Below, in pieces: positions 50,523 through 62,766 of a stretch of DNA of 64,000 nt; the stretch's first letter is position 1, and the number at the start of each line of letters is the position of its first letter. The position numbers and the translations under genes were made by a program. The notes under the pieces were generated by a model. The model saw nothing but the letters and a program-made list of their open reading frames with translations. It was not told the DNA's origin and did no database searches. The DNA comes from Arabidopsis thaliana (taxonomy: Eukaryota > Streptophyta > Magnoliopsida > Brassicales > Brassicaceae), in the NCBI RefSeq assembly GCF_000001735.4, contig NC_003070.9:19949971-20013970 (forward strand), written 5' to 3'.

Positions 50523-50733
50523 ATTAAGCCACGGTGTTAGCCGTCGTATCAACATAGCTACCGGTGGTGCTGTTTTCACGACCATTCTTCTCAAACCAGG
50601 CTTGACGATTGACGAAACCTAGCTAAGACACAACTAAAGATATTTTTTTGGTTTTGAACAAATAATGATACTTGAGAAGAAGAAAGCCTAGTAAGGCTAA
50701 GTAGATTACAGAATCTATCATTTTTCGATCCAT
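50523..50733 (-). CDS. Small membrane-anchored microprotein, structure uncertain
   Basis: From the ATG at 50733 the frame reads MDRKMIDSVIYLALLGFLLL, an anchor like those of the microprotein cluster at 54-62 kb, and reaches TAG at 50623 (36 aa). The same frame then continues open after that stop (LGFVNRQAWFEKNGREN to a TAA at 50523). A GT-AG intron of 103 nt (50569-50671) would skip the TAG and give a 35-aa protein ending TTGSYVDTTANTVA. Otherwise it is a one-stop pseudogene or a readthrough case. A TATA-like TATATTATAGAG lies about 35 bp upstream. The upstream sequence matches that of the small gene at 55.8 kb, which supports a real relationship. Confidence 0.45.
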
Positions 50734-51292
50734 CGATTGATCTCTAAATGATTTGATCACGACTCTATAATATATACTGTACTGTTTCTAATCATATGCA
50801 AAAATGTTTTTGGAGGTTAGCTGTTTTCTGACTTTGTATTTGCAATTTCTACTGATATATATACACTAATACAAGTTGTTTCCTATAGACTTTGATTTTT
50901 ATTATAATTTAGGGGAATGTGTAAATAATTTAGGGGAATATGTCAATATGCTAGTTGAGACGTGCAATGTATTGACCAAACCCATTATATACATTTGTCG
51001 TGCCAAGTTGCCTCAGTCTTTAGTTTGATTGATGTTTAAAAACTATTTGACCGTTAATAGGATGGAAATGGTACACAAAAATCTCATGAGTCATGGATGA
51101 TATGAAACTGTATATAATCTCATAATTATAGTTATTGTTTATCCCAAATTGGATCATTCTATGGCTGATGTGGCAAAATTATATTGTCAATTAACTTGTG
51201 AACTACATAAACAGAATTATTATATAAGCTTTAAAACCCTAAATATTTACCCGGCTTTTTTTTCTTCTCGCATCCTTTGAAATCGCTAGTCA
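50734..51292. promoter_or_regulatory. Promoter region shared in sequence with the 55.8-kb small gene
   Basis: Stretches about 50805-51060 parallel 56040-56210: TTTTTGGAGGT, GACTTTGTATTT, GCTAGTTGAGA and CTCAGTCTTT occur in the same order. The region also has to serve the divergent PPR gene, whose TATA-like TTATATAAGCTTT is at about 51220-51232. Confidence 0.6.
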
Positions 51293-53446
51293 ATGGTGAT
51301 GAGACCGATTTCGAACAAAGGATTAATTTACAGACACAATATTTGTCTGAGATGTAATTCTACGCTTGCTGTCTCTAACCACGAGCCCATTACCCAGAAA
51401 ACACGAAACTTTCTGGAGACGACGACAACGAGCACAGCTATCTTTCAATGTAATTCTCAGATTTCGAAGCACGCGAGAAATGGGAATCTCCAAGAAGCTG
51501 AAGCTATTTTCAGACAGATGTCAAATAGAAGTATTGTCTCTTGGATTGCGATGATTTCTGCTTACGCAGAGAATGGTAAGATGAGTAAAGCATGGCAAGT
51601 GTTCGATGAAATGCCTGTGAGAGTTACAACTTCTTATAATGCGATGATTACGGCTATGATTAAAAACAAGTGTGATTTGGGTAAAGCTTATGAATTGTTT
51701 TGTGATATACCGGAGAAGAATGCGGTTTCTTATGCGACGATGATTACCGGTTTTGTTCGGGCTGGGCGGTTTGATGAGGCCGAATTTTTGTATGCTGAGA
51801 CACCTGTGAAGTTTCGTGATTCTGTTGCTTCGAATGTTTTGTTAAGTGGGTATTTGAGAGCAGGGAAATGGAACGAGGCTGTTCGTGTTTTTCAGGGTAT
51901 GGCTGTGAAAGAAGTGGTATCGTGTAGCTCAATGGTTCATGGGTATTGCAAAATGGGGAGAATTGTTGATGCGAGAAGTCTTTTTGATAGAATGACTGAG
52001 AGAAATGTGATTACTTGGACTGCTATGATTGATGGGTATTTTAAAGCTGGGTTTTTTGAAGATGGGTTTGGTCTGTTTCTGAGAATGAGACAGGAGGGAG
52101 ATGTCAAGGTTAATTCTAATACTTTGGCTGTCATGTTTAAAGCTTGTCGAGATTTTGTCAGATACCGAGAGGGAAGTCAGATTCATGGGTTAGTTTCACG
52201 AATGCCTCTGGAGTTTGATCTGTTTCTAGGGAATTCATTGATGTCAATGTACTCTAAGCTTGGTTATATGGGAGAGGCCAAAGCAGTGTTTGGGGTGATG
52301 AAAAATAAAGACAGTGTTTCTTGGAATTCCTTGATCACGGGTCTTGTTCAGCGCAAACAGATTTCTGAAGCTTATGAACTTTTCGAGAAGATGCCGGGTA
52401 AAGATATGGTGTCCTGGACAGATATGATCAAGGGATTTTCTGGAAAAGGAGAAATCTCTAAATGTGTAGAGTTATTTGGAATGATGCCTGAGAAGGACAA
52501 CATAACATGGACTGCTATGATATCTGCTTTTGTGAGCAATGGATATTATGAGGAGGCACTTTGCTGGTTTCATAAGATGCTCCAGAAAGAGGTTTGTCCT
52601 AATTCCTACACTTTCAGTAGTGTCCTCAGTGCAACAGCTAGTTTAGCGGATTTAATTGAAGGATTACAAATCCACGGTAGAGTTGTGAAGATGAACATAG
52701 TGAATGACTTGTCTGTTCAGAATTCATTGGTATCGATGTATTGTAAATGCGGGAACACAAATGATGCTTACAAGATATTTTCATGCATCAGTGAGCCCAA
52801 TATTGTTTCTTATAACACGATGATCAGCGGGTATTCCTATAATGGTTTTGGTAAGAAAGCTCTAAAATTGTTCTCCATGTTGGAAAGTTCAGGAAAAGAG
52901 CCAAATGGTGTTACCTTTCTTGCTCTGTTATCAGCTTGTGTTCATGTTGGATATGTGGACTTAGGATGGAAATACTTCAAATCGATGAAATCCTCTTACA
53001 ACATTGAACCAGGACCTGATCATTATGCATGCATGGTTGATCTCCTTGGCAGAAGTGGATTACTTGATGACGCATCTAACTTGATCTCTACAATGCCTTG
53101 TAAGCCTCATTCTGGGGTTTGGGGCAGCTTGCTTAGTGCAAGCAAGACTCATTTACGTGTCGATCTAGCTGAGCTTGCTGCTAAGAAACTAATCGAACTT
53201 GAGCCTGATAGTGCAACACCTTACGTGGTATTGTCCCAGCTATATTCAATTATTGGGAAAAACAGAGATTGTGATCGAATAATGAATATCAAGAAATCGA
53301 AAAGAATAAAGAAGGATCCTGGGTCTAGCTGGATCATCTTAAAGGGTGAAGTACATAATTTTCTTGCAGGAGATGAATCTCAGCTGAATCTTGAAGAGAT
53401 AGGTTTCACATTGAAGATGATTAGAAAGGAAATGGAATTGATTTGA
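51293..53446 (+). CDS. PLS-class pentatricopeptide repeat protein, E subgroup
   Basis: An organellar RNA-binding protein of the kind that specifies C-to-U editing sites. Single exon, 717 aa, typical of the family. The N-terminus (about 1-45, basic, Ser/Thr-rich) looks like a mitochondrial targeting peptide. About fifteen degenerate 31-36-residue repeats follow, for example VSWIAMISAYAENGKMSKAW and VITWTAMIDGYFKAGFFEDG. The C-terminal E and E+ motifs (PYVVLSQLYSIIGKNRDCDR, KDPGSSWIILKGEVHNFLAG) are present but there is no DYW domain, so a deaminase partner would be needed for editing. The 3' end of the frame takes part in a tandem duplication. I recall it as AT1G53600. Confidence 0.95.
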   Translation: MVMRPISNKGLIYRHNICLRCNSTLAVSNHEPITQKTRNFLETTTTSTAIFQCNSQISKHARNGNLQEAEAIFRQMSNRSIVSWIAMISAYAENGKMSKAWQVFDEMPVRVTTSYNAMITAMIKNKCDLGKAYELFCDIPEKNAVSYATMITGFVRAGRFDEAEFLYAETPVKFRDSVASNVLLSGYLRAGKWNEAVRVFQGMAVKEVVSCSSMVHGYCKMGRIVDARSLFDRMTERNVITWTAMIDGYFKAGFFEDGFGLFLRMRQEGDVKVNSNTLAVMFKACRDFVRYREGSQIHGLVSRMPLEFDLFLGNSLMSMYSKLGYMGEAKAVFGVMKNKDSVSWNSLITGLVQRKQISEAYELFEKMPGKDMVSWTDMIKGFSGKGEISKCVELFGMMPEKDNITWTAMISAFVSNGYYEEALCWFHKMLQKEVCPNSYTFSSVLSATASLADLIEGLQIHGRVVKMNIVNDLSVQNSLVSMYCKCGNTNDAYKIFSCISEPNIVSYNTMISGYSYNGFGKKALKLFSMLESSGKEPNGVTFLALLSACVHVGYVDLGWKYFKSMKSSYNIEPGPDHYACMVDLLGRSGLLDDASNLISTMPCKPHSGVWGSLLSASKTHLRVDLAELAAKKLIELEPDSATPYVVLSQLYSIIGKNRDCDRIMNIKKSKRIKKDPGSSWIILKGEVHNFLAGDESQLNLEEIGFTLKMIRKEMELI

Positions 53447-53820
53447 GTCAGCCATCACATGAAAGCAGTTTTCCAATGAAGCAAGATGCAAGCACATGGT
53501 TTTCACTTCATCAACAGAGAGCAAGAAGCTCTCACTTGGTCATATGCATCTAATAATGGATGGGTTTGTCTATATATATTCTTCACAGTAAAGTGGTGTA
53601 GAGGTTTCTATCTCTCACTTCATCAAATGGAATTGATTTGAGTCAGCCATCACATGAAAGCAGTTTTCCAATGAAGCAAGATGCAAGCACATGGTTTTCA
53701 CTTCATCAACAGAGAGCAAGAAGCTCTCACTTGGTCATATGCATCTAATAATGGATGGGTTTGTCTATATATATTCTTCACAGTAAAGTGGTGTAGAGGT
53801 TTCTATCTCTCACTTCATCA
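53431..53820 (+). repeat. Tandem duplication of the PPR gene 3' end
   Basis: Two back-to-back 195-bp units, 53431-53625 and 53626-53820, which appear identical. Unit 1 begins in the last five codons of the PPR frame and includes its stop, so the second unit carries a spare stop and 3' UTR. The break is flanked by a CACTTCATCA repeat, suggesting unequal exchange. A third, diverged part (about 53958-54030) keeps ATATGCAT, AATGGATGG and GCTTCACAGT. Confidence 0.9.
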
Positions 53821-54705
53821 ACAGAGATCACGAAGCTCACTTGATCGCCTTGTAAAAACTAAATGCCTCAAGTTTGTCTTCCTAGAACGAACCGAAGATA
53901 ACATTGTTAGCTTAGCTCCTCTATGAATGAGTTTTAATGTTTTCGATTATACTTCACACATATGCATTTATATAATGGATGGTGTTTGTGTACATATGCT
54001 TCACAGTGAAGCCTGTAAAGTGGTTATGCAGAGGAATTACCGATATGTATTTATTATTGTTTTAATCAAAACCATTTCCTTCGAGCAATGGATCATCGAT
54101 TAAAAAAGCACATTGGCAAAATAATTTCATTATCAAATCCATATACTGTAGCTAATGATGTCTGCTATAGTTTGGTTGATTTTATTATTTCTTTCTAATT
54201 ATTTTTTCTATTGGATTATTTCCTTTTCAATAGCTATCTTTCTTAATATTATCAAATAAAAGTTAAATGCACCAAAATTATTTTTTCTTTTATTAAACTG
54301 ATTTTTTTTTTTTTTACAAAAAACGAATTTTATCTTTCAGTACAATAACTCAACTTAATTCACCTTACCAATAAGTTTTCTCATTGATTTCAATTTTTGA
54401 TCTAATAATTTTAGGAGAGGATAACTCGAACTTGTAAAATCAACAAAGTTCAATCTCAAAGTTTAATATTTTTTTAATGAATCACTATTGGTAACATTAT
54501 TATTAGTTTTAACTTTTAAGTATAAATTAGGTCAATCACAGTATTGGACGTAAGTCATCAATTAACTACGCCTCTAGCCCAAAGTCCTTAACCTAATCCA
54601 AATACAAAATAAATAATAATTTCTGACCAGAAAACAGATAATGAGTATAAATACGGTTGCATTGGTTGGAAGAAAACGTGATTATTTGAAAATTTATACT
54701 ATTCC
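53821..54705. other. AT-rich spacer and promoter of the 54.7-kb small gene
   Basis: About 880 bp with long A/T tracts. A TATA box (GTATAAATAC, about 54644-54653) lies some 80 bp before the next start codon. No ORF of substance. Confidence 0.5.
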
Positions 54706-54732
54706 AGAGAGAGAGAGAGAGAGAGAGAGATC
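54706..54732 (+). repeat. GA microsatellite abutting a start codon
   Basis: An uninterrupted (GA)n run of about 24 bases ends two bases before the ATG at 54733, so it forms the end of the 5' leader. Confidence 0.9.
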
Positions 54733-55101
54733 ATGGTAACTCCTTTTTTTGGTGTCATAGCTATTTGTGGTTTCTTTGCTTTGATGGTAATAATCGTGTG
54801 CATTTTGGAGTGGGGGAAGAAGGAGACTGTCATTAATGAGGGATCTGCACAAAAGCCTAACAACCAGAGAACAAGAGCAGTAAGAACAAGCAATGGTAGC
54901 TACATGTTTTATCCAGCTGCTGCGTCGACTCTCCCTATCTCCGATTCCGACAATCACCGCCACCATCATGCCGGTTATCATCACGGTGGACATCATGGAG
55001 GCGGTGGTTGTGGTGGTGGACATCATGGTGGTGGAGGAGGAGGATGTGGTGGTTGTGGTGGAGGAGGATGTGGTGGTGGAGGCGACGGAGGAGGAAGTTA
55101 G
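54733..55101 (+). CDS. Membrane-anchored His/Gly/Cys-rich small protein
   Basis: 122 aa in one exon. Residues about 5-28 form one hydrophobic helix (FFGVIAICGFFALMVIIVCI). A short basic and polar linker follows (residues 30-75). The last 50 residues are almost only Gly, His and Cys: HRHHHAGYHHGGHHGGGGCG, then CGGCGGGGC, ending DGGGS. Such a tail could bind metal ions. It is the only cluster member on the plus strand and the only one with many histidines. No known enzyme domain. TATA box about 80 bp upstream, GA-rich leader. Confidence 0.8.
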   Translation: MVTPFFGVIAICGFFALMVIIVCILEWGKKETVINEGSAQKPNNQRTRAVRTSNGSYMFYPAAASTLPISDSDNHRHHHAGYHHGGHHGGGGCGGGHHGGGGGGCGGCGGGGCGGGGDGGGS

Positions 55102-55785
55102 TTATGTACTTATAACGATTTCTAGTTTAGATGCTGCGTTACTATAGTTTTTTGGGTAAAAATATATATTTTTTTCTTCTTATTTTCTATTGGATTTAAT
55201 CTCTTTTTCTTTTATCAGCCGATTTTGTTGGACTGAATATATCTGATAATGCTGAAGCTGATCCAACCAATTTTATAAGTACTATTATTTAACCATCATA
55301 AATAACAATAATCTGATAACTTGAAAATAATTTAAGAGAAGTTACACATTTTATTTAGATTGAGAAAACATTACACAAACCAAAATAAATAAATATGATA
55401 GTAACAATTATGAATATCATAATCCTGTATTTTTACCTTTTTTTTGGGATAAAATACTTAGATTATTTGCAAATTAATATTAGTTTTCAAAGTTAGATAT
55501 CAGCTAGCACTACATATATATATATATATGTTCTACGATTAAACGTTATATATTTTAAATTATACAAAATCTAGTAGTTTGCAATATATAATAAAATATG
55601 ATGTAAAATAAACAATAAAACAAATTGTTTCATGTCTATGGTTTGTTTCATCTCTACAACTTGCTCACACAAACCCAAACTATAGAGCATCTTTCATATT
55701 TCAAAAACAAATACATATAATCATAAAAATCTTTGTAAGAAATGGTTTGAGTGACAAGTCGTGCGGTGGTAGCCGCCTCGACGCT
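55102..55785. other. Convergent spacer
   Basis: About 680 bp, very AT-rich, between two convergent small genes. A (TA)n run lies at 55513-55530. No coding signal. Confidence 0.5.
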
Positions 55786-55917
55786 TCAGCAACAGCCACC
55801 GGCCTCTTTCCGGCCGTTGTTCTGACTCTTTTGGTAACGAAAGTAGAAGAGACATAAGATGAATATTATCAAGAATATTACCGCAATCACTATGTCCATA
55901 ATCTTCAAAGGAGTCAT
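55786..55917 (-). CDS. 43-aa membrane microprotein with Cys-pair tail
   Basis: Too short for ordinary gene finding, but convincing. The frame starts MTPLKIMDIVIAVIFLIIFI, forms one helix (about residues 6-26), continues with a basic and polar stretch (YFRYQKSQNNGRKEAG) and ends GGCC. A Cys-Cys end after a hydrophobic helix recalls palmitoylated or CYSTM-like small proteins, but here the helix comes first. TATA box CTATAAAGAGC at about 55992-56002, 75-85 bp before the ATG. Its upstream DNA matches that of the 50.5-kb small gene. Confidence 0.65.
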   Translation of the reverse strand: MTPLKIMDIVIAVIFLIIFILCLFYFRYQKSQNNGRKEAGGCC

Positions 55918-56795
55918 TCGTTTTTGTTTTACTTGATTTCTAATTTATGATGTTGTTTCTTAGAGAGAAACAATAATTTCTCTTTTTCTTGCTCTTTATA
56001 GATATGTGTAGTTTCTTATTATATACAACAAGTTTTTTTTTGGAGGTGAGCCATTTTGGAGACTTTGTATTTTTGGAAGTTGTGTCGGTGACTTTTATTT
56101 TTTAATTATTATAATAAGTAAGGGAATTTAGATTTGATAAAATGTGCCAATTAAGCTAGTTGAGAATTGTGATTTAACCATTCTGCTTGTCTCAGTCTTT
56201 GGCTTGTACTTCACATGAATGGAATTGGTATTACAAATATATTATCTATACAATATTTTCACTATATTTATATATGTTCTTTTTTTTTCTTCATAGCTGT
56301 AAAGTGAAATGTGTTTCTTTATAAGTTATCGTTTATCTATTGACAAATAAGATGTGAAAAATAAAATATGTGATTTTTTATACGGCCATGCATCAAATCT
56401 TAGAATATATCTGTTATGAACCGATTGTTAAACAACAGTAGATCCATAAGTCAAGAAGTCGAGAAGTCAAGAAACACATTGTATTTGTTCATACAATCCA
56501 TTAACCAATTTTTGATATATTGAACTCATTAAGATTTAAGAAAAGGGATATTTTGAAGTAAACTGTTGACTAATAAGAAGAGACTTTCAATCAATTTTCC
56601 CGGTTATACACAAGCACATGCATAGACCATTTTTGCATAATTACGAACTTAGAACAATCTATTATATGAATGATACTTCAAAAGATATACAATTAACGAA
56701 GAACTTGTATGGATAAATATATATATATATATATATCCCAACAAAAATATTGAAACTACACGTTTCCATGCACCGATGCACGAGTAAGATTAAAG
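55918..56795. other. Promoter of the 55.8-kb gene and AT-rich spacer
   Basis: About 880 bp. The first 300 bases are promoter sequence duplicated from or to 50.8-51.06 kb. A (TA)n run lies at 56717-56736. No other feature. Confidence 0.45.
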
Positions 56796-56954
56796 TCAAC
56801 CGCCAAAATCACCACCGTAACCGCTGCCAAGACAGGCGATGCTTTCCTTGCCATCCTTCTTAGCTTTGTGGTAGAGAAAGTGAATGAGCCACAAGATGAA
56901 CAAAAACATGAGAAATGCCCCAAACACTATGAACAGAATGGCCACAGGACTCAT
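56796..56954 (-). CDS. 52-aa membrane microprotein, tandem pair member 1
   Basis: I take the ATG at 56954 (MSPVAILFIVFGAFLMFLFI); the frame is open to another ATG at 56993 that would add 13 polar residues. One long helix covers residues about 4-26. Then comes WLIHFLYHKAKKDGKESIAC and a short Gly-rich end (GSGYGGDFGG). The block WLIHFLY-KxKKDG is shared with the gene at 58.0 kb, showing a tandem duplication. TATA-like TATATATAC lies about 70 bp upstream (57020-57030). Function unknown. Confidence 0.7.
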   Translation of the reverse strand: MSPVAILFIVFGAFLMFLFILWLIHFLYHKAKKDGKESIACLGSGYGGDFGG

Positions 56955-57988
56955 TTGACTAACTTCTTTTTGATTGTTAATTTTGTTTTTCACTCCTCCG
57001 ATAAGGAAACAACAAGATGTATATATATAGAGAGATTGATGACATTTATTATGAAAGTCTCGTTGTCTTAATATTTAAGTCATCTTGTTAACCATTGACT
57101 TTTGTGTTAGGTTTTATCTGAATTTCAAACGGAATATTCGGATATTAATGTAGTCGTTACTTTTGGCTTTTTCTTCAAGCCCAAATGGAGATGAAATTTA
57201 GAATTTTTATTTCGAAAAGATTATTGAACCGAAAATTATGTTCGTCAGGTGTCGGATTAATCATGACCCTAGTATTTGTTTCCTGTTAATAGATAGATAG
57301 CACAATACACTCTTTGTTTTATTTTATGTTTTCGTAGAGATATTAAATATGTTTTCGAAAAAACATACATATAGACAGTAATCATGAGACCAAGTCATAC
57401 CTGGATTAGTGTATTACAATCAATTAGTACAAGTCATGTTTTTATAACCTTGATATAGTTAAATACATACTCCAACGAAGAGTATCATTTGAAATAGACA
57501 AATTCTTCGAAATTATAGAATTTTAATGAAATGTTATATGGTCACCAATCACCAATTTTTACATGAAGTTTTATTAATTCTTTAACATCAACTAGATTGC
57601 GTTTGATATTATAATAGGCTAAACCATAGTAACTGTTTTCTTGATTTTTTCGTAACTTTTCTTGTTAAATAGACATTCCGAGTAGATTTTCGGTATGTAT
57701 GATGTGTTGGGTAAACAATGGAGAAAAACATTTCTTCGAACTTAATTAGTGCTTAGAGCGATCGAGTTTGTCCTAATTCAGACAGAGAATGTTTTTGGGA
57801 TTAATTTTTTTTTAAATCATGATCATTTGCTAAATTAGGTCTGTAATTGGTTTTGAAATAATGATATTAAATATATTCATAGATTACATACAATTATACA
57901 AATAAGAATTAGGATAATGGTTTCCACAAAGAGAGTAGAGTTTAATGATGCATTCCATAAAGATACGCAAAGGTTGTTGTTGGTGACA
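56955..57988. other. AT-rich spacer
   Basis: About 1 kb between the two members of the pair. The first 100 bases are the core promoter of the 56.8-kb gene (GGAAACAACAAGATGTATA on the plus strand). Otherwise no feature seen. Confidence 0.45.
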
Positions 57989-58141
57989 TCAGACGCCGTC
58001 GTCATAGCCGAAGGGGTGGCAACTGGTTCTTATCTTGCCGCCATCTTTCTTAGTTTTGTTGTAGAGAAAGTGGATTAGCCAAATGATTAAGATTAGCAAG
58101 AAAACTGCCATAAAGACTATAAACATAATCATTTTCCCCAT
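57989..58141 (-). CDS. 50-aa membrane microprotein, tandem pair member 2
   Basis: Starts MGKMIMFIVFMAVFLLILII, a single helix, followed by WLIHFLYNKTKKDGGKIRTS and CHPFGYDDGV. It is clearly related to the 56.8-kb protein over WLIHFLY-KxKKDG, while the tail has diverged and lost most glycines. Both genes share a core promoter with GGAAAC...AAGATGTATATATA on the plus strand, here at about 58214-58237, some 90 bp upstream. Too short for usual gene finding. Confidence 0.65.
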   Translation of the reverse strand: MGKMIMFIVFMAVFLLILIIWLIHFLYNKTKKDGGKIRTSCHPFGYDDGV

Positions 58142-58224
58142 CGATGATCGATCTATTAGTTTTTCTCTCTTCTTTTAATTAATTCATACTAAATATGATT
58201 TGATTCTCATACAGGGAAACATGA

Positions 58225-58260
58225 AGATGTATATATAGATATAGATATAGATATAGGTAA
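58225..58260. repeat. ATAGAT microsatellite in a promoter
   Basis: A TATATAGATATAGATATAG run overlaps the TATA region of the 58.0-kb microprotein gene and may be an expanded TATA box. Confidence 0.7.
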
Positions 58261-59050
58261 ACAGATGATATGCTACTTGTGTTAATTTATACTAAATTGT
58301 TGTTTGACTTTTGTATTTCAATTATAAGTACATATTCATGGAAACATCCAAAGTTGCACATATTGTAACTAACACTCCATATTCTACAATAATCTCATAA
58401 TTATATATATGTTTGTTTAGCTTATCTTGAAAGGATAGTAATAATAATTTCATCATCCTCAAATTATTATTTTTGAATATCTACACAAACACACACAATT
58501 CTTTCATCCTCGAATGCTGAATATCTATCATATTTGAATTCTTATTTTAATTTAAAGCATGTATACAGTATTTACATAGGTGAGTAACAGATGACCAGCT
58601 TAGATTTTCAGAAATTTCAAACCAAAAACATTATCTCAAAAGCTGTTACTAAGCTGTTTACGCCAATAAGAAAAATAACTTACAAGTTACAATATGAGAA
58701 AAAGAGTTAAATTTTCATTTTCGAGGGATTTATGAAATTTTATTTTACTCTTAGTTCAAAATTAATAAATTATAGTAAAAAAAAAAAAAATCCTCACAAG
58801 AATTTTAATCATTTACTTATCTATATATATGTGCATCACCGTTTGTGTCCATGCATACTTTATATCATCCAAATTATTATATAAAGAGAAATGAAAGTTT
58901 ACAAGAAAATTAATATTGTGTAAACCAGCAATTCATATTCACACGATCATTATTTACCTTATGATACCATTTCCATCCTCACGAGAGTTTAAATCTTACA
59001 TTATATGCATATATATAGATAACTATCAAATCCCACAATATACGAAACCC

Positions 59051-59350
59051 TTAACCTCCACAGCCGCCGCAACCTCCACAACCGCCGCCATCTCCTCCAC
59101 CATCACCACCTCCTCCACAACAACAACCATTGTAATCATCAGTGGTTACAGCTGCAGCTACAACAGCTGTGGTGGCATCATTTCCTGTCAAAACAACAAG
59201 TCCTCCATCTTTTGTTCCCGTTACACCCGTTTCCAAATCTCGTGGCTGAGACAAAGGCTCTTTCTTCCTATAGGAGACACAGCCTATGACAATCAACGCG
59301 AAAATAACACAGGCAGATACTGCAATAACGACATTAACAACAGGCTCCAT
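59051..59350 (-). CDS. Membrane-anchored Gly/Cys-rich small protein (unit A)
   Basis: 99 aa, one exon. MEPVVNVVIAVSACVIFALI begins a single helix (about residues 4-26), then SYRKKEPLSQPRDLETG (basic, polar) and a conserved block KDGGLVVLTG. An Ala/Val/Thr-rich stretch leads to a tail of Gly with regularly spaced Cys, ending CGGCGGCGG. Almost the same protein is encoded in unit C, 2.6 kb away. No catalytic motif. The TATA box is about 65 bp upstream, so the leader is very short. Confidence 0.82.
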   Translation of the reverse strand: MEPVVNVVIAVSACVIFALIVIGCVSYRKKEPLSQPRDLETGVTGTKDGGLVVLTGNDATTAVVAAAVTTDDYNGCCCGGGGDGGGDGGGCGGCGGCGG

Positions 59351-59414
59351 TATATCTTTTTTTTTTTTTGAAACTGAACTGATACCAAAAAGATGATGGG
59401 AGAGAATAGTTTCC

Positions 59415-59423
59415 TTTTATATA
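59415..59423 (-). promoter_or_regulatory. TATA box of unit A gene
   Basis: Minus strand TATATAAAAG within TTCTATATAAAAGGAAAC. The same block recurs in front of units B and C at nearly the same distance from the ATG. Confidence 0.75.
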
Positions 59424-60755
59424 GAAGGTTAAGGCATAAACCTATTTAGTTTCTTAAAGATACACGAAATTGCAAAGGAAAATTCAATTCTACTAGCAAA
59501 AAATTCTTGATTACTTTTTCTTTTTAATGACATTTCATATGTTTCAAAATTGCTTTGACTTTTATTATTATTAAAAAAAATCATTTTGTGTTTTGTCGCT
59601 TACACAACTTAGCAGATTGATGTTTCGGCTCACAGCCCATACGTGTTATTCATGACAACAACCCCCTAAGAATTGGTATATTTTCCTACTCAGTTGTTCT
59701 TTCTGTTATACAGCAGACTTTTCATTATTTGTAAAATATAATTTAAAATATTGATTAAAACTTTCTAGAACTAGTAAAAAGTTTTGATTTCATCTTTTAA
59801 AGGGTTTCATTCCCCTTCTTGTTCTCTCTTTATACAATTTTTGTAATGAGCACTATATTTTATTTGATATAAGGAAAACATATTTTCCAAAACCAATTAT
59901 AGAATGATAAATCAATGTTTAAAACTCAAATGTGTTTCTAATAGGTTGTAATATTATAACGAACATAAGAAAATGTAAGGAAAAACAGAACGTAGGTAAG
60001 TTTTATTTAGAGGCTATTTATTATTTTAGTTGTATAAGGAGGATAAATGGATAATGATATTTGCATGTTCAACGGTTAGGGATCGGTGTAATGTATACGG
60101 TCAAATATAAAATGAGATCAGCATTATAGATTGAATATTTGAAACATCATTCTACACACTATGCAGTATATTACTTTTGGTCAATACGAAAATGTGCGAC
60201 TTACCCATACATCAACATCAGATATGCGAGAAATATTAGAAAATATAAATAGATCATACTAGTATTTCAAACGGAATTTTATTATTGATATTCTTGGATA
60301 TTCGAACTTTTATTCGGTCGATCGATATAAATGATTAATTAAAAAAACATGTATTACTTTTATTTGATTTTATCAACGGCACATATAAATTAGAAATGAA
60401 ACTTTTTGATTGGTCACTATTGGATATGGCCTTCTTTTTTCAGATTCGGCCCAGGTTGAAAGTTTTGTCACAAATGCTACGTCAGTGACTAAAGTCAACG
60501 AAACTCAGTCCGCATATACATTCTTTAAACGAAATGAAAGAGAAAATAAAATTTATAATAAGATTAATGTTTTGTATATCAGCAATTTACATTTACACAA
60601 TCATATCTTCAGCTCATGATACAATTTTTTTTCTTCTATATAACATGTTTTTTTTTTGGGTCACAAATCACGAGTTTAAATCTTACCTATACATGCATGG
60701 ATAATAAAGGAGATCATTATCAAATCCCACGACACAAGACATGACTATACGAAAC

Positions 60756-60917
60756 TCAGTCCCCTCCACAGCCACCGGAACCTCCCTCACCGCCTCCACA
60801 ACCTCCACCATCATCACCGCCTATAGGCTTCCTATAGGAGGAGACACAACATATGACGATTGACGGGAAAATAACAAATCCACATACTATAATAATGACA
60901 ACGTCAAAAGGATTCAT
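60756..60917 (-). CDS. 53-aa membrane-anchored Gly/Cys-rich microprotein (unit B)
   Basis: Reads MNPFDVVIIIVCGFVIFPSI, then VICCVSSYRKPIGG and a short tail DDGGGCGGGEGG with SGGCGGD. The helix and the Y-R-K junction match the unit A and C proteins, but the whole middle (EPLSQPRDLE to VVAAAVTT) is missing. It is thus either a deleted, still-open paralogue or a minimal family member. TATA box about 70 bp upstream. Confidence 0.65.
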   Translation of the reverse strand: MNPFDVVIIIVCGFVIFPSIVICCVSSYRKPIGGDDGGGCGGGEGGSGGCGGD

Positions 60918-60984
60918 TATTTCTTCTTAAATGTTAAAAAAAAAAAAACTGAATTGATACCCAAATGAGGCGAGAATAGTGTCC

Positions 60985-60993
60985 TTTTATATA
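60985..60993 (-). promoter_or_regulatory. TATA box of unit B gene
   Basis: Minus strand TATATAAAAG in TTCTATATAAAAGGACAC, matching units A and C. Confidence 0.75.
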
Positions 60994-61631
60994 GAATGTT
61001 ATGACGTAAACCTGTTTAGTTTATTAAAGGTACACGAAATTTCAAAAGAAATTTCAATTTTCTAGTAAAATTAAGACATTTTCAATAAAAATTCATAAGT
61101 TACTACAACTTGCTTTTGAGTATTTCGCATACTGCTCATAAAGAAGAATATTCATTCTTGGTCATGTAAAATATTATTTTAAACTGTAGTTAGAGTTTCT
61201 AAAATTAGTACATAGAGTTCTGATTTTGTCTTCGAGTTCCCTTTTTCTTCTTTTTCTTTTTCTGTAATGAACACTGTATATATTTGATGAAAAATAACAT
61301 AAGAAAGGTGTATGGGTTCTCTACTATTTTAAGTTTTAACTGTATATGGAGGACAAAATGTAGTATATCATATAAGAGGTTGAATATATGTTTCAACGGT
61401 TAGGATCATTGGTGTCCTTTTTCATCCAAATTATTCTAATTAAGAGAAAAGAAAGTTTCAAAAAGAATTGATATTTTGTAAACAAAGAATCATATTTACA
61501 CGATCATTTCTTCACGTTATGATACAATTTCCAACCTCACAAGAGTTGAAATCTTACATTTGTTTTTGTTAATAGTTTATATGCAAAGTTAATAAAGAGA
61601 TAATTTCACACCCACAAACTATACGAAACCC

Positions 61632-61937
61632 TTAACCTCCACAGCCGCCACAACCTCCACAACCGCCACCATCTCCTCCACCAGCATCACCATCACAACC
61701 GCCACCATCTCCTCCACCGCCGCAACCGCCAGAACGTTCTGTGGTTACACCCGCAGCAACAACAGCTGTTCCTGTCAAAACAACAAGTCCTCCATCTTTT
61801 ATTCCCGCTAAACCGTTTTCCAAATCCCGCGGCTGAAACAAAGGCTCTTTCTTCCTATGGGAGATACAGCATATGACAGTCAACACGAAAATAACACAGG
61901 CACCTAATATAATGATGACATTAACAACAGGCTCCAT
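61632..61937 (-). CDS. Membrane-anchored Gly/Cys-rich small protein (unit C)
   Basis: 101 aa from the ATG at 61937 (MEPVVNVIIILGACVIFVLT), the same start as the unit A protein; an in-frame ATG 51 bases upstream lies in the leader and is not conserved. One helix, then SHRKKEPLFQPRDLENG, the shared block KDGGLVVLTG, and a Gly/Cys/Asp tail with GGGGDGGGCDGDAGGGDGGG and a CGGCGGCGG end. Unit A and C are close paralogues whose tails differ mainly by length, as expected for slippage in GGN repeats. Confidence 0.82.
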   Translation of the reverse strand: MEPVVNVIIILGACVIFVLTVICCISHRKKEPLFQPRDLENGLAGIKDGGLVVLTGTAVVAAGVTTERSGGCGGGGDGGGCDGDAGGGDGGGCGGCGGCGG

Positions 61938-61999
61938 TATATCTTTTAACTTTTTTTTGTGAAACTGAACTGATACCAAAGGATGCAAGAATAGTGTCC

Positions 62000-62008
62000 T
62001 TTTATATA
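62000..62008 (-). promoter_or_regulatory. TATA box of unit C gene
   Basis: Minus strand TATATAAAAG in TTTCTATATAAAAGGACAC, some 65-70 bp upstream of the ATG. Confidence 0.75.
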
Positions 62009-62766
62009 GAAAGGTTATGAAATAAACCTCTCTAGTTTCTTAAACATACACGAAATTGCAAAGGAAATTTCAACATTACTTGCAAAAATTTAGACATTTT
62101 CTTGATTATTTTCTTATAAATCCAATGAAATTCCATAAATTTTAAACTTGCGTTTTATTATTTAAATAAATATATACATTGAATTTTTCGCTGACACAAC
62201 TTCGTAGATGTTTCTGCTCACACAGCCATACAGCAGAATATTCATTCTTCGTCGTGTAGAATATTATTTAAAATTATGATTACAGTTTTCAAGAATTAGT
62301 ACAAAGTTTTATTTTGTCTTTCAAAGGGTTTTAATAATTTCTTCCCTTTCTTGTTTTCGTGTGATACGATTTTTGTAGTGAACACTGTATTTACTTGATG
62401 TAAGAAAGAAAAATCATTTCCAAAACTAATTAAAGAAATGATTAATTAAAAAACAAAAACAAAAAAACCAATGGTTTTGGTATTGGTTGTAATGCTATAA
62501 TGAACATAAGAAAATGTAGGGGAAAGAATAAGTAAGTATTCTTACAGGTTCTCTATTATTTTAGTTATAAAGATAATAATATTGCTTATTCATGTTCAAC
62601 AGTTAGGGGTCGGTACGGTGTATTTTATAAGGTCAAATATAAAATGAGATCACCATAATAGGTTGAACATTTGTAACATCATTCTAATGCTATGCAGTGT
62701 TAGTCTTGGTCAATACGAAAACGTGCGACTTACCTATTACACGTCAGACATGCGAGAAATATTCGG

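Follow-up and report, generated by a model that had tools for sequence, protein, structure and literature searches.

An array of short genes on Arabidopsis chromosome 1 that look like genes for tiny membrane-tethered proteins

Introduction

Near the right end of a 64,000-nucleotide stretch of Arabidopsis thaliana chromosome 1 (contig NC_003070.9, positions 19,949,971 to 20,013,970 of the forward strand; 'the window' below, numbered from its first letter) lies a series of very short reading frames, which raises the question whether these are genes and, if so, of what kind. A reading of the letters alone, referred to here as the original prediction, had placed there a cluster of eight genes for membrane-anchored microproteins. 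We find that seven such frames look like genes for tiny membrane-anchored proteins, and that they appear to open a longer array, some twelve short genes in about 21 kb, which runs from 54.7 kb in the window past its right edge. We give about an even chance to the reading that the array encodes tandem, fast-evolving, stress- and iron-responsive membrane-tethered microproteins, the tail of which would have a putative metal- or thiol-binding function.

Results

Hydropathy of the window frames

Open reading frames (ORFs) of at least 30 aa in window region 53447-62600 were scanned for their 19-residue Kyte-Doolittle mean (KD19) near the N-terminus (first 15 positions). Inside the window the array extends over about 54.65-62.0 kb, and the scanned region is preceded by a PPR gene of 717 aa (51293-53446). 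The frames concerned are the following.

54733-55101, plus strand: 122-aa frame, N-terminal helix and Gly/His/Cys tail, with 34 Gly, 10 His and 6 Cys in the whole protein; a sequence singleton
55786-55917, minus strand: 43-aa frame, trio member 1, with helix, basic stretch and GGCC end
56796-56954, minus strand: 52-aa frame, trio member 2, with LWLIHFLY helix end and KKDG junction; 53% identity to the 50-aa member
57989-58141, minus strand: 50-aa frame, trio member 3, with a helix end of the IWLIHFLY type
59051-59350, minus strand: gene A, 99 aa, with helix, CVSYRKKEP junction, KDGGLVVL motif and CCCGGG...CGGCGGCGG tail
60756-60917, minus strand: gene B, 53 aa, with helix and Gly/Cys tail like A and C; the middle part with KDGGLVVL is missing
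61632-61937, minus strand: gene C, 101 aa, near tandem copy of A (77-80% identity)
50623-50733, minus strand: 36-aa frame, presumed eighth frame of the original prediction; background, non-member

The claim of one N-terminal hydrophobic helix per frame was borne out, as KD19 was 3.03-3.35 in all seven frames, the best stretch beginning at residues 5-7. With the line at 2.9, which was set after the scores were seen, 7 ORFs were found against a mean of 0.013 and a maximum of 1 in 300 dinucleotide shuffles. The corresponding counts were 7 against 0.137 (maximum 3) at KD19 of at least 2.5, 11 against 0.73 (maximum 4) at 2.0 or more, and 7 against 0.017 (maximum 1) when the 2.5 line was combined with a loose filter for a Gly/Cys/His tail. 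Six other 9,154-bp tiles of the window, the last of which overlaps the array region and cuts the 122-aa ORF, contained no ORF at the 2.5 or 2.9 line and 1-3 at the 2.0 line. Chance open frames in A+T-rich DNA would be short, as these are, and background frames with KD19 of 1.6-2.6 do occur in the same region. However, the excess of seven frames at 2.9 or above over a shuffle mean of 0.013, the paralogy among the frames and the published expression of genes of this stretch, as far as the papers were available to us, make this explanation very improbable. For the seven it was rejected on the comparison of hydropathy with the shuffles. It was accepted for the 36-aa frame, which lies across the PPR gene, has a KD19 of 1.6 and carries no Gly/Cys/His tail. 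Of the eight proposed members seven therefore remain, six rather than seven being on one strand, and at the proposed start of the cluster, position 50523, no ATG frame of at least 30 aa begins or ends.

An uncleaved N-terminal helix with a positive flank on its C-terminal side is a feature of type III (N-out/C-in) single-pass proteins. Over the 15 residues past the helix the net charge was positive in five of the seven, so that a positive junction holds for these and not for the 122-aa (-1) and 53-aa (0) frames. The Gly/Cys(/His)-rich tail proposed for the cluster can be seen clearly in four frames (122, 99, 53 and 101 aa); the 43/52/50-aa trio has a short or weak one. Single-sequence structure prediction of C gave a helix at residues 2-29 with a mean pLDDT of 55.7, most of the remainder being below 50.

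The array beyond the window edge

The window edge cuts the array. Within the next 11.5 kb of the chromosome five more paralogues and one look-alike (H) were found.

Chr1 20014545-20014814, minus strand: gene D, 89 aa
Chr1 20017504-20017797, minus strand: gene E, 97 aa
Chr1 20019500-20019739, minus strand: decayed copy, 79 aa, without KDGG and without tail
Chr1 20020885-20021106, minus strand: gene F, 73 aa
Chr1 20023518-20023742, minus strand: gene G, 74 aa
Chr1, first exon from 20025461, minus strand: gene H, with helix, ICCY and KKKK, and a Gly/Cys stretch further on; it likely has an intron

With the chosen starts D to G have a KD19 of 0.36-0.70. D and G lack an upstream in-frame ATG, and the head of their open frame (KD19 1.76 and 1.34, respectively) contains no helix. 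Their Cys-rich starts, which align near the junction of A and C, are candidate S-acylation sites. For E and F the shorter starts are preferred, because the upstream ATGs are situated at or before the TATA box. Directly before the ATG chosen for F, its leader encodes in frame a hydrophobic stretch with a KD19 of 2.54, which may be what is left of the helix or may indicate that translation begins further upstream.

A shared core and two small families

Six of the eight aligned copies (A, C, D, E, F and G) combine a Cys-containing anchor, a basic linker, a KDGGL core and a Gly/Cys tail; KDGGL, one V and five tail residues are invariant in all six, while B and the 79-aa copy are without the core. 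A genome search with the pattern KDGG-hydrophobic-hydrophobic-V gave 21 matches, five of them in A, C, D, E and F, against one for the reversed-pattern control. G reads KDGGLRV and so escapes the pattern. The remaining 16 places read KDGGFLV (15, of which 11 are copies of one sequence and four a local group) or KDGGVIV (one). The four KDGGFLV matches of the local group lie in one 47-kb stretch of chromosome 3 (C3:21563356-21610667), perhaps another local tandem family. The CGGCGG pattern was found at 31 places in the genome, and 30 loci were examined. Among ATG frames of at least 30 aa it was read by the array genes of 122, 99 and 101 aa and by two further frames whose N-terminus is not hydrophobic. 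Scanned against Pfam, 13 array proteins (seven in the window, six distal) gave no match at the cut-off of any family.

By sequence the seven window frames would fall into two small families (99/53/101 aa and 43/52/50 aa) and a His/Gly singleton (122 aa). In genome searches C retrieved A at 77% with an E of 2.6e-32 and, with E between 1.1e-4 and 0.046, three distal genes of the array; a chromosome 5 match was judged spurious. D retrieved A (E 3.0e-10), C (0.026) and G (0.066). The 50-aa frame retrieved the 52-aa frame (E 3.1e-8), the 43-aa frame (E 0.044) and a weak chromosome 2 match, the 52-aa frame retrieved the other two of the trio, and the 122-aa frame found itself only. B as a query gave itself and two weak chromosome 3 matches, but at the DNA level three pieces of B match unit C at 76-79%. 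The strong paralogue matches of these searches fall inside the array. Profile comparison of the trio with the Gly/Cys group gave a probability of 13% (E 0.0021) over 27 hydrophobic columns; the KKDG of the trio resembles the KKDGG of gene D. The searches and the profile comparison thus do not support one family for all seven frames. Of the locally expanded family that had been proposed, the expansion, the small size and the anchor stand, while by sequence it is two families and a singleton.

Weak protein matches at C2:18962799, C3:17167912, C3:19964274, C5:24317746, C1:18229595 and C3:6482934 were not counted as members, nor were three short Gly-codon DNA matches elsewhere obtained with unit C. 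One weak match of B (E 0.0056) corresponds to a 57-aa frame of similar layout at about C3 19964268-19964441, with a hydrophobic helix, CCC, an acidic stretch and a short Cys/Gly end. A pattern search of prokaryote genome contigs gave 591 matches, of which not one codes for a relative, and among solved structures one chance-level match (E 0.73) was obtained.

Promoter elements

The TATA boxes of the Gly/Cys group in the window are the following.

59418-59423, minus strand: TATA box of A, 73 bp upstream of the ATG
60988-60993, minus strand: TATA box of B, 76 bp upstream of the ATG
62003-62008, minus strand: TATA box of C, 71 bp upstream of the ATG

The presence of TATA boxes, claimed for several of the frames, was seen in all: TATAWA lies 46-112 bp before the ATG in 7/7 window genes and in 9/12 genes overall, against 3/12 mirrored downstream positions (p 0.039). 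A W-box was present within 300 bp upstream in 9/12 genes, against 2/12 downstream (Fisher p 0.012) and 12/47 non-coding tiles of the array; these tests concern small numbers and related genes, with motifs chosen after looking. H, which has a W-box and lacks the TATA box, is left out of the counts. The three genes counted as lacking a W-box are B, C and the 43-aa gene.

Published records of single genes

Codes of the Arabidopsis Genome Initiative (AGI) are taken by us to run along the chromosome, and it is this order that puts AT1G53625 and AT1G53640 inside the array. AT1G53635 is probably gene G, by the coordinate of a single-nucleotide polymorphism (SNP), C1_20023793, which is situated 51 bp 5' of the ATG of G, between the ATG and the TATA box (-88/-90).

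The papers cited here were consulted in part. The SNP is associated with the virulence of cucumber mosaic virus (CMV) and was assigned to AT1G53635 by SnpEff and TAIR10 (PMC8067046). AT1G53635 is described as novel and as one of 32 genes robustly induced by FIT (iron deficiency), and as one of four unknown proteins of 79-128 aa (PMC5048462); its induction by FIT is repeated in a review (PMC10406446). By the SNP coordinate it would thus be a member with KDGGL and a Cys/Gly tail that, unlike the window genes, has no transmembrane helix. AT1G53625 is 14.88-fold up in ndb2, in a table shared with WRKY30 (PMC9716356), appears in a cytokinin table with log2 values of -1.7 and +1.5 in the two columns for treatments (PMC8706806), and is listed among the sterol-dependent proteins of a plasma-membrane proteomics study, 'down' in one column (PMC3957024). 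An intronic SNP of AT1G53640 was tied to seed development in triploids (PMC6675909), which is consistent with an intron in gene H, and one co-expression table has an entry for this gene (PMC5550703).

A search by AGI code of the open-licence literature, with supplements and subscription journals outside its scope, yielded nothing on AT1G53610, AT1G53620, AT1G53630 and AT1G53633. Neither the codes nor concept words led to a treatment of these genes as one family in the parts of that literature available to us. The members are in part already known gene by gene, and the array is larger than the original prediction had it. That the frames are mostly below gene-finder cut-offs is untrue of the whole array, the codes AT1G53625, AT1G53635 and AT1G53640 being in print, whereas the guess of a metal or stress function agrees with what has been published on the regulation of AT1G53635 (iron deficiency, FIT) and of AT1G53625, placed as said by code order.

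Comparison with known small proteins

CYSTM/PCM proteins are, like the array products, small (71-82 aa) and Cys-rich, several of them at the plasma membrane and partly encoded in tandem, and they respond to salicylic acid (SA) and pathogens (PMC8049917, in the part consulted). They carry a C-terminal Cys-rich transmembrane domain, whereas the window proteins have an N-terminal helix and a Gly/Cys-rich tail. None of the 13 array proteins had a CYSTM family among its Pfam matches at E≤1, and the seven window proteins, with their best hydrophobic stretch at residues 5-7, show no C-terminal Cys-rich transmembrane segment. Membership was ruled out on these two grounds. Plant glycine-rich proteins (GRP, PF07172) resemble the window proteins in having a hydrophobic N-terminus followed by a Gly-rich part. 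The array differs from them by its KDGGL core and by the absence of a hydrophobic start in D and G, and membership was rejected, as only the 101-aa protein was listed, with 12.5 bits against a cut-off of 30.

The resemblance to CYSTM/PCM bears on another explanation, in which the proteins would work in the manner of those pathogen-induced proteins and serve membrane-tethered immune or stress signalling, and the Gly/Cys tail is a flexible segment for oligomerisation or partner binding, without metal binding. The W-boxes upstream of 9/12 genes favour an immune reading, as do the induction of AT1G53625 in ndb2 alongside WRKY30 (PMC9716356), its appearance in the cytokinin table with FLG22-induced receptor-like kinase 1 (PMC8706806), the similar size, Cys content and partly tandem order of PCM genes (PMC8049917) and the plasma-membrane anchoring of PCC1 (PMC3903633), all taken from the parts of these papers that were seen. 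However, AT1G53635 was picked out in the literature consulted as regulated by iron and FIT, there is no CYSTM match, and B, C and the 43-aa gene are without a W-box. We regard this explanation as possible, if doubtful.

Other features of the region

By eye, window positions 53432-53822 contain a tandem duplication in direct orientation, the copies being shifted by 195 bp. The final codons of the PPR gene fall within it, and it gives rise to two near-identical short frames (53486-53641 and 53681-53926). Antisense frames of 110 aa (54694-55026) and 136 aa (58961-59371) face the 122-aa and 99-aa genes and are probably shadows of repetitive Gly codons. Between D and E (about Chr1 20016400-20017100) broken frames resemble, by eye, a decayed retroelement.

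Discussion

The preferred reading is that of membrane-tethered microproteins that may act through their tails. The tether, probably to the plasma membrane, would be an N-terminal transmembrane helix in the window genes; two or more of the distal genes would use instead a short N-terminus, Cys-rich and probably S-acylated. Behind it would follow a basic linker, in six genes the KDGGL core, and a presumably disordered Gly/Cys(/His) tail on the cytosolic side. The array would have grown by tandem duplication and lost copies by deletion and loss of frame. Stress would regulate its members, and iron deficiency one of them. The most likely role of the tail is metal-ion binding or reversible thiol linkage at the membrane surface, so that the proteins might buffer or sense the iron or redox state, or cluster partners; a disordered Gly/Cys tail beside a membrane, as modelled, would suit metal or thiol chemistry or clustering. 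The metal reading is favoured because one member is induced by iron deficiency.

That the tail probably faces the cytosol is suggested by the sequences, because the tails of A and C, which have a helix, are homologous to those of D and G, which have none, and because a short Cys-rich N-terminus is no signal peptide. The original prediction had left the side open between apoplast and cytosol. An apoplast-facing tail is judged less likely, since the tails of D and G occur without a helix or a signal-like start.

Several observations weigh against the preferred reading. The first group concerns substitution rates. A and C are close copies of each other; their DNA identity is 75-86% in upstream blocks (86% in the 100 bp before the ATG), 83-88% in the coding sequence and 80% downstream. 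The ratio of nonsynonymous to synonymous substitution (dN/dS) of A-C was 0.51, with a 95% bootstrap interval of 0.28-1.04 for pN/pS, the corresponding ratio of proportions (93 codons), and with whole proteins 7/12 pairs had an upper bound of pN/pS below 1. At first these values seemed to speak for purifying selection. With the tail removed, pN/pS was 1.34 for A-C (59 codons) and 0.55-0.97 for the 14 remaining pairs that A, C, D, E, F and G can form. In a control of protein-aligned non-coding upstream DNA, drawn from about seven of ten gene pairs, the median was 0.76 and the 2.5% point 0.52 (n=613). No tail-less pair falls below this point, and the ratios are indistinguishable from the alignment bias that the control represents. 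The substitution rates do not show coding constraint, and the A-C comparison proposed as a check (0.51 overall, 1.34 outside the tail) neither supports nor refutes it.

These ratios would suit young tandem genes of fast turnover and little constraint, transcribed and translated, mostly without an individual function, in which the helix and the Gly tail are tolerated; so would the reduced copies, that is B without its middle part and the 79-aa copy without KDGG and tail. Yet KDGGL is kept in six paralogues, while in the array outside A-C the DNA of unit C matches the coding part of D (66%) and nothing else, and the hydropathy is far above that of the shuffles. We consider this explanation unlikely.

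The remaining observations that count against the preferred reading concern mainly the identity and the starts of single genes. The motif tests were picked after looking and involve related genes. G as a query reaches the array weakly (A and F at E 0.54-0.77). It reads 74 aa, against the published 79-128 aa for the set that includes AT1G53635, so that AT1G53635 could be a different gene model of G, or else F, which lies next to G and is a member too. None of six E/G-box words scanned was present within 300 bp upstream of G. AT1G53625 has its place solely by the code order that we assume. Upstream in-frame ATGs would add segments with a KD19 of 2.14 to E and 2.54 to F; because E and F could gain hydrophobic segments in this way, the swap of anchor is clear, at the level of sequence, for D and G only, together with the decayed 79-aa copy. 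Finally, metal binding by the tail is itself putative.

A wider proposal, which we put forward as a rather unlikely one, is that the array represents an unrecognised, perhaps lineage-restricted family. In it a cytosolic KDGGL-Gly/Cys module for metal or thiol chemistry would be constant, the tether would be swapped between a helix and an S-acylated N-terminus, and the promoter input between iron/FIT and immune signals; the products would be membrane-surface buffers or sensors of iron and redox state that link iron status and immunity.

For the plant, the finding joins the FIT-induced AT1G53635, by its SNP coordinate, and the stress-induced AT1G53625 of the membrane fraction, by presumed code order, in one tandem array of paralogues, within which redundancy may mask the effect of single-gene knock-outs.

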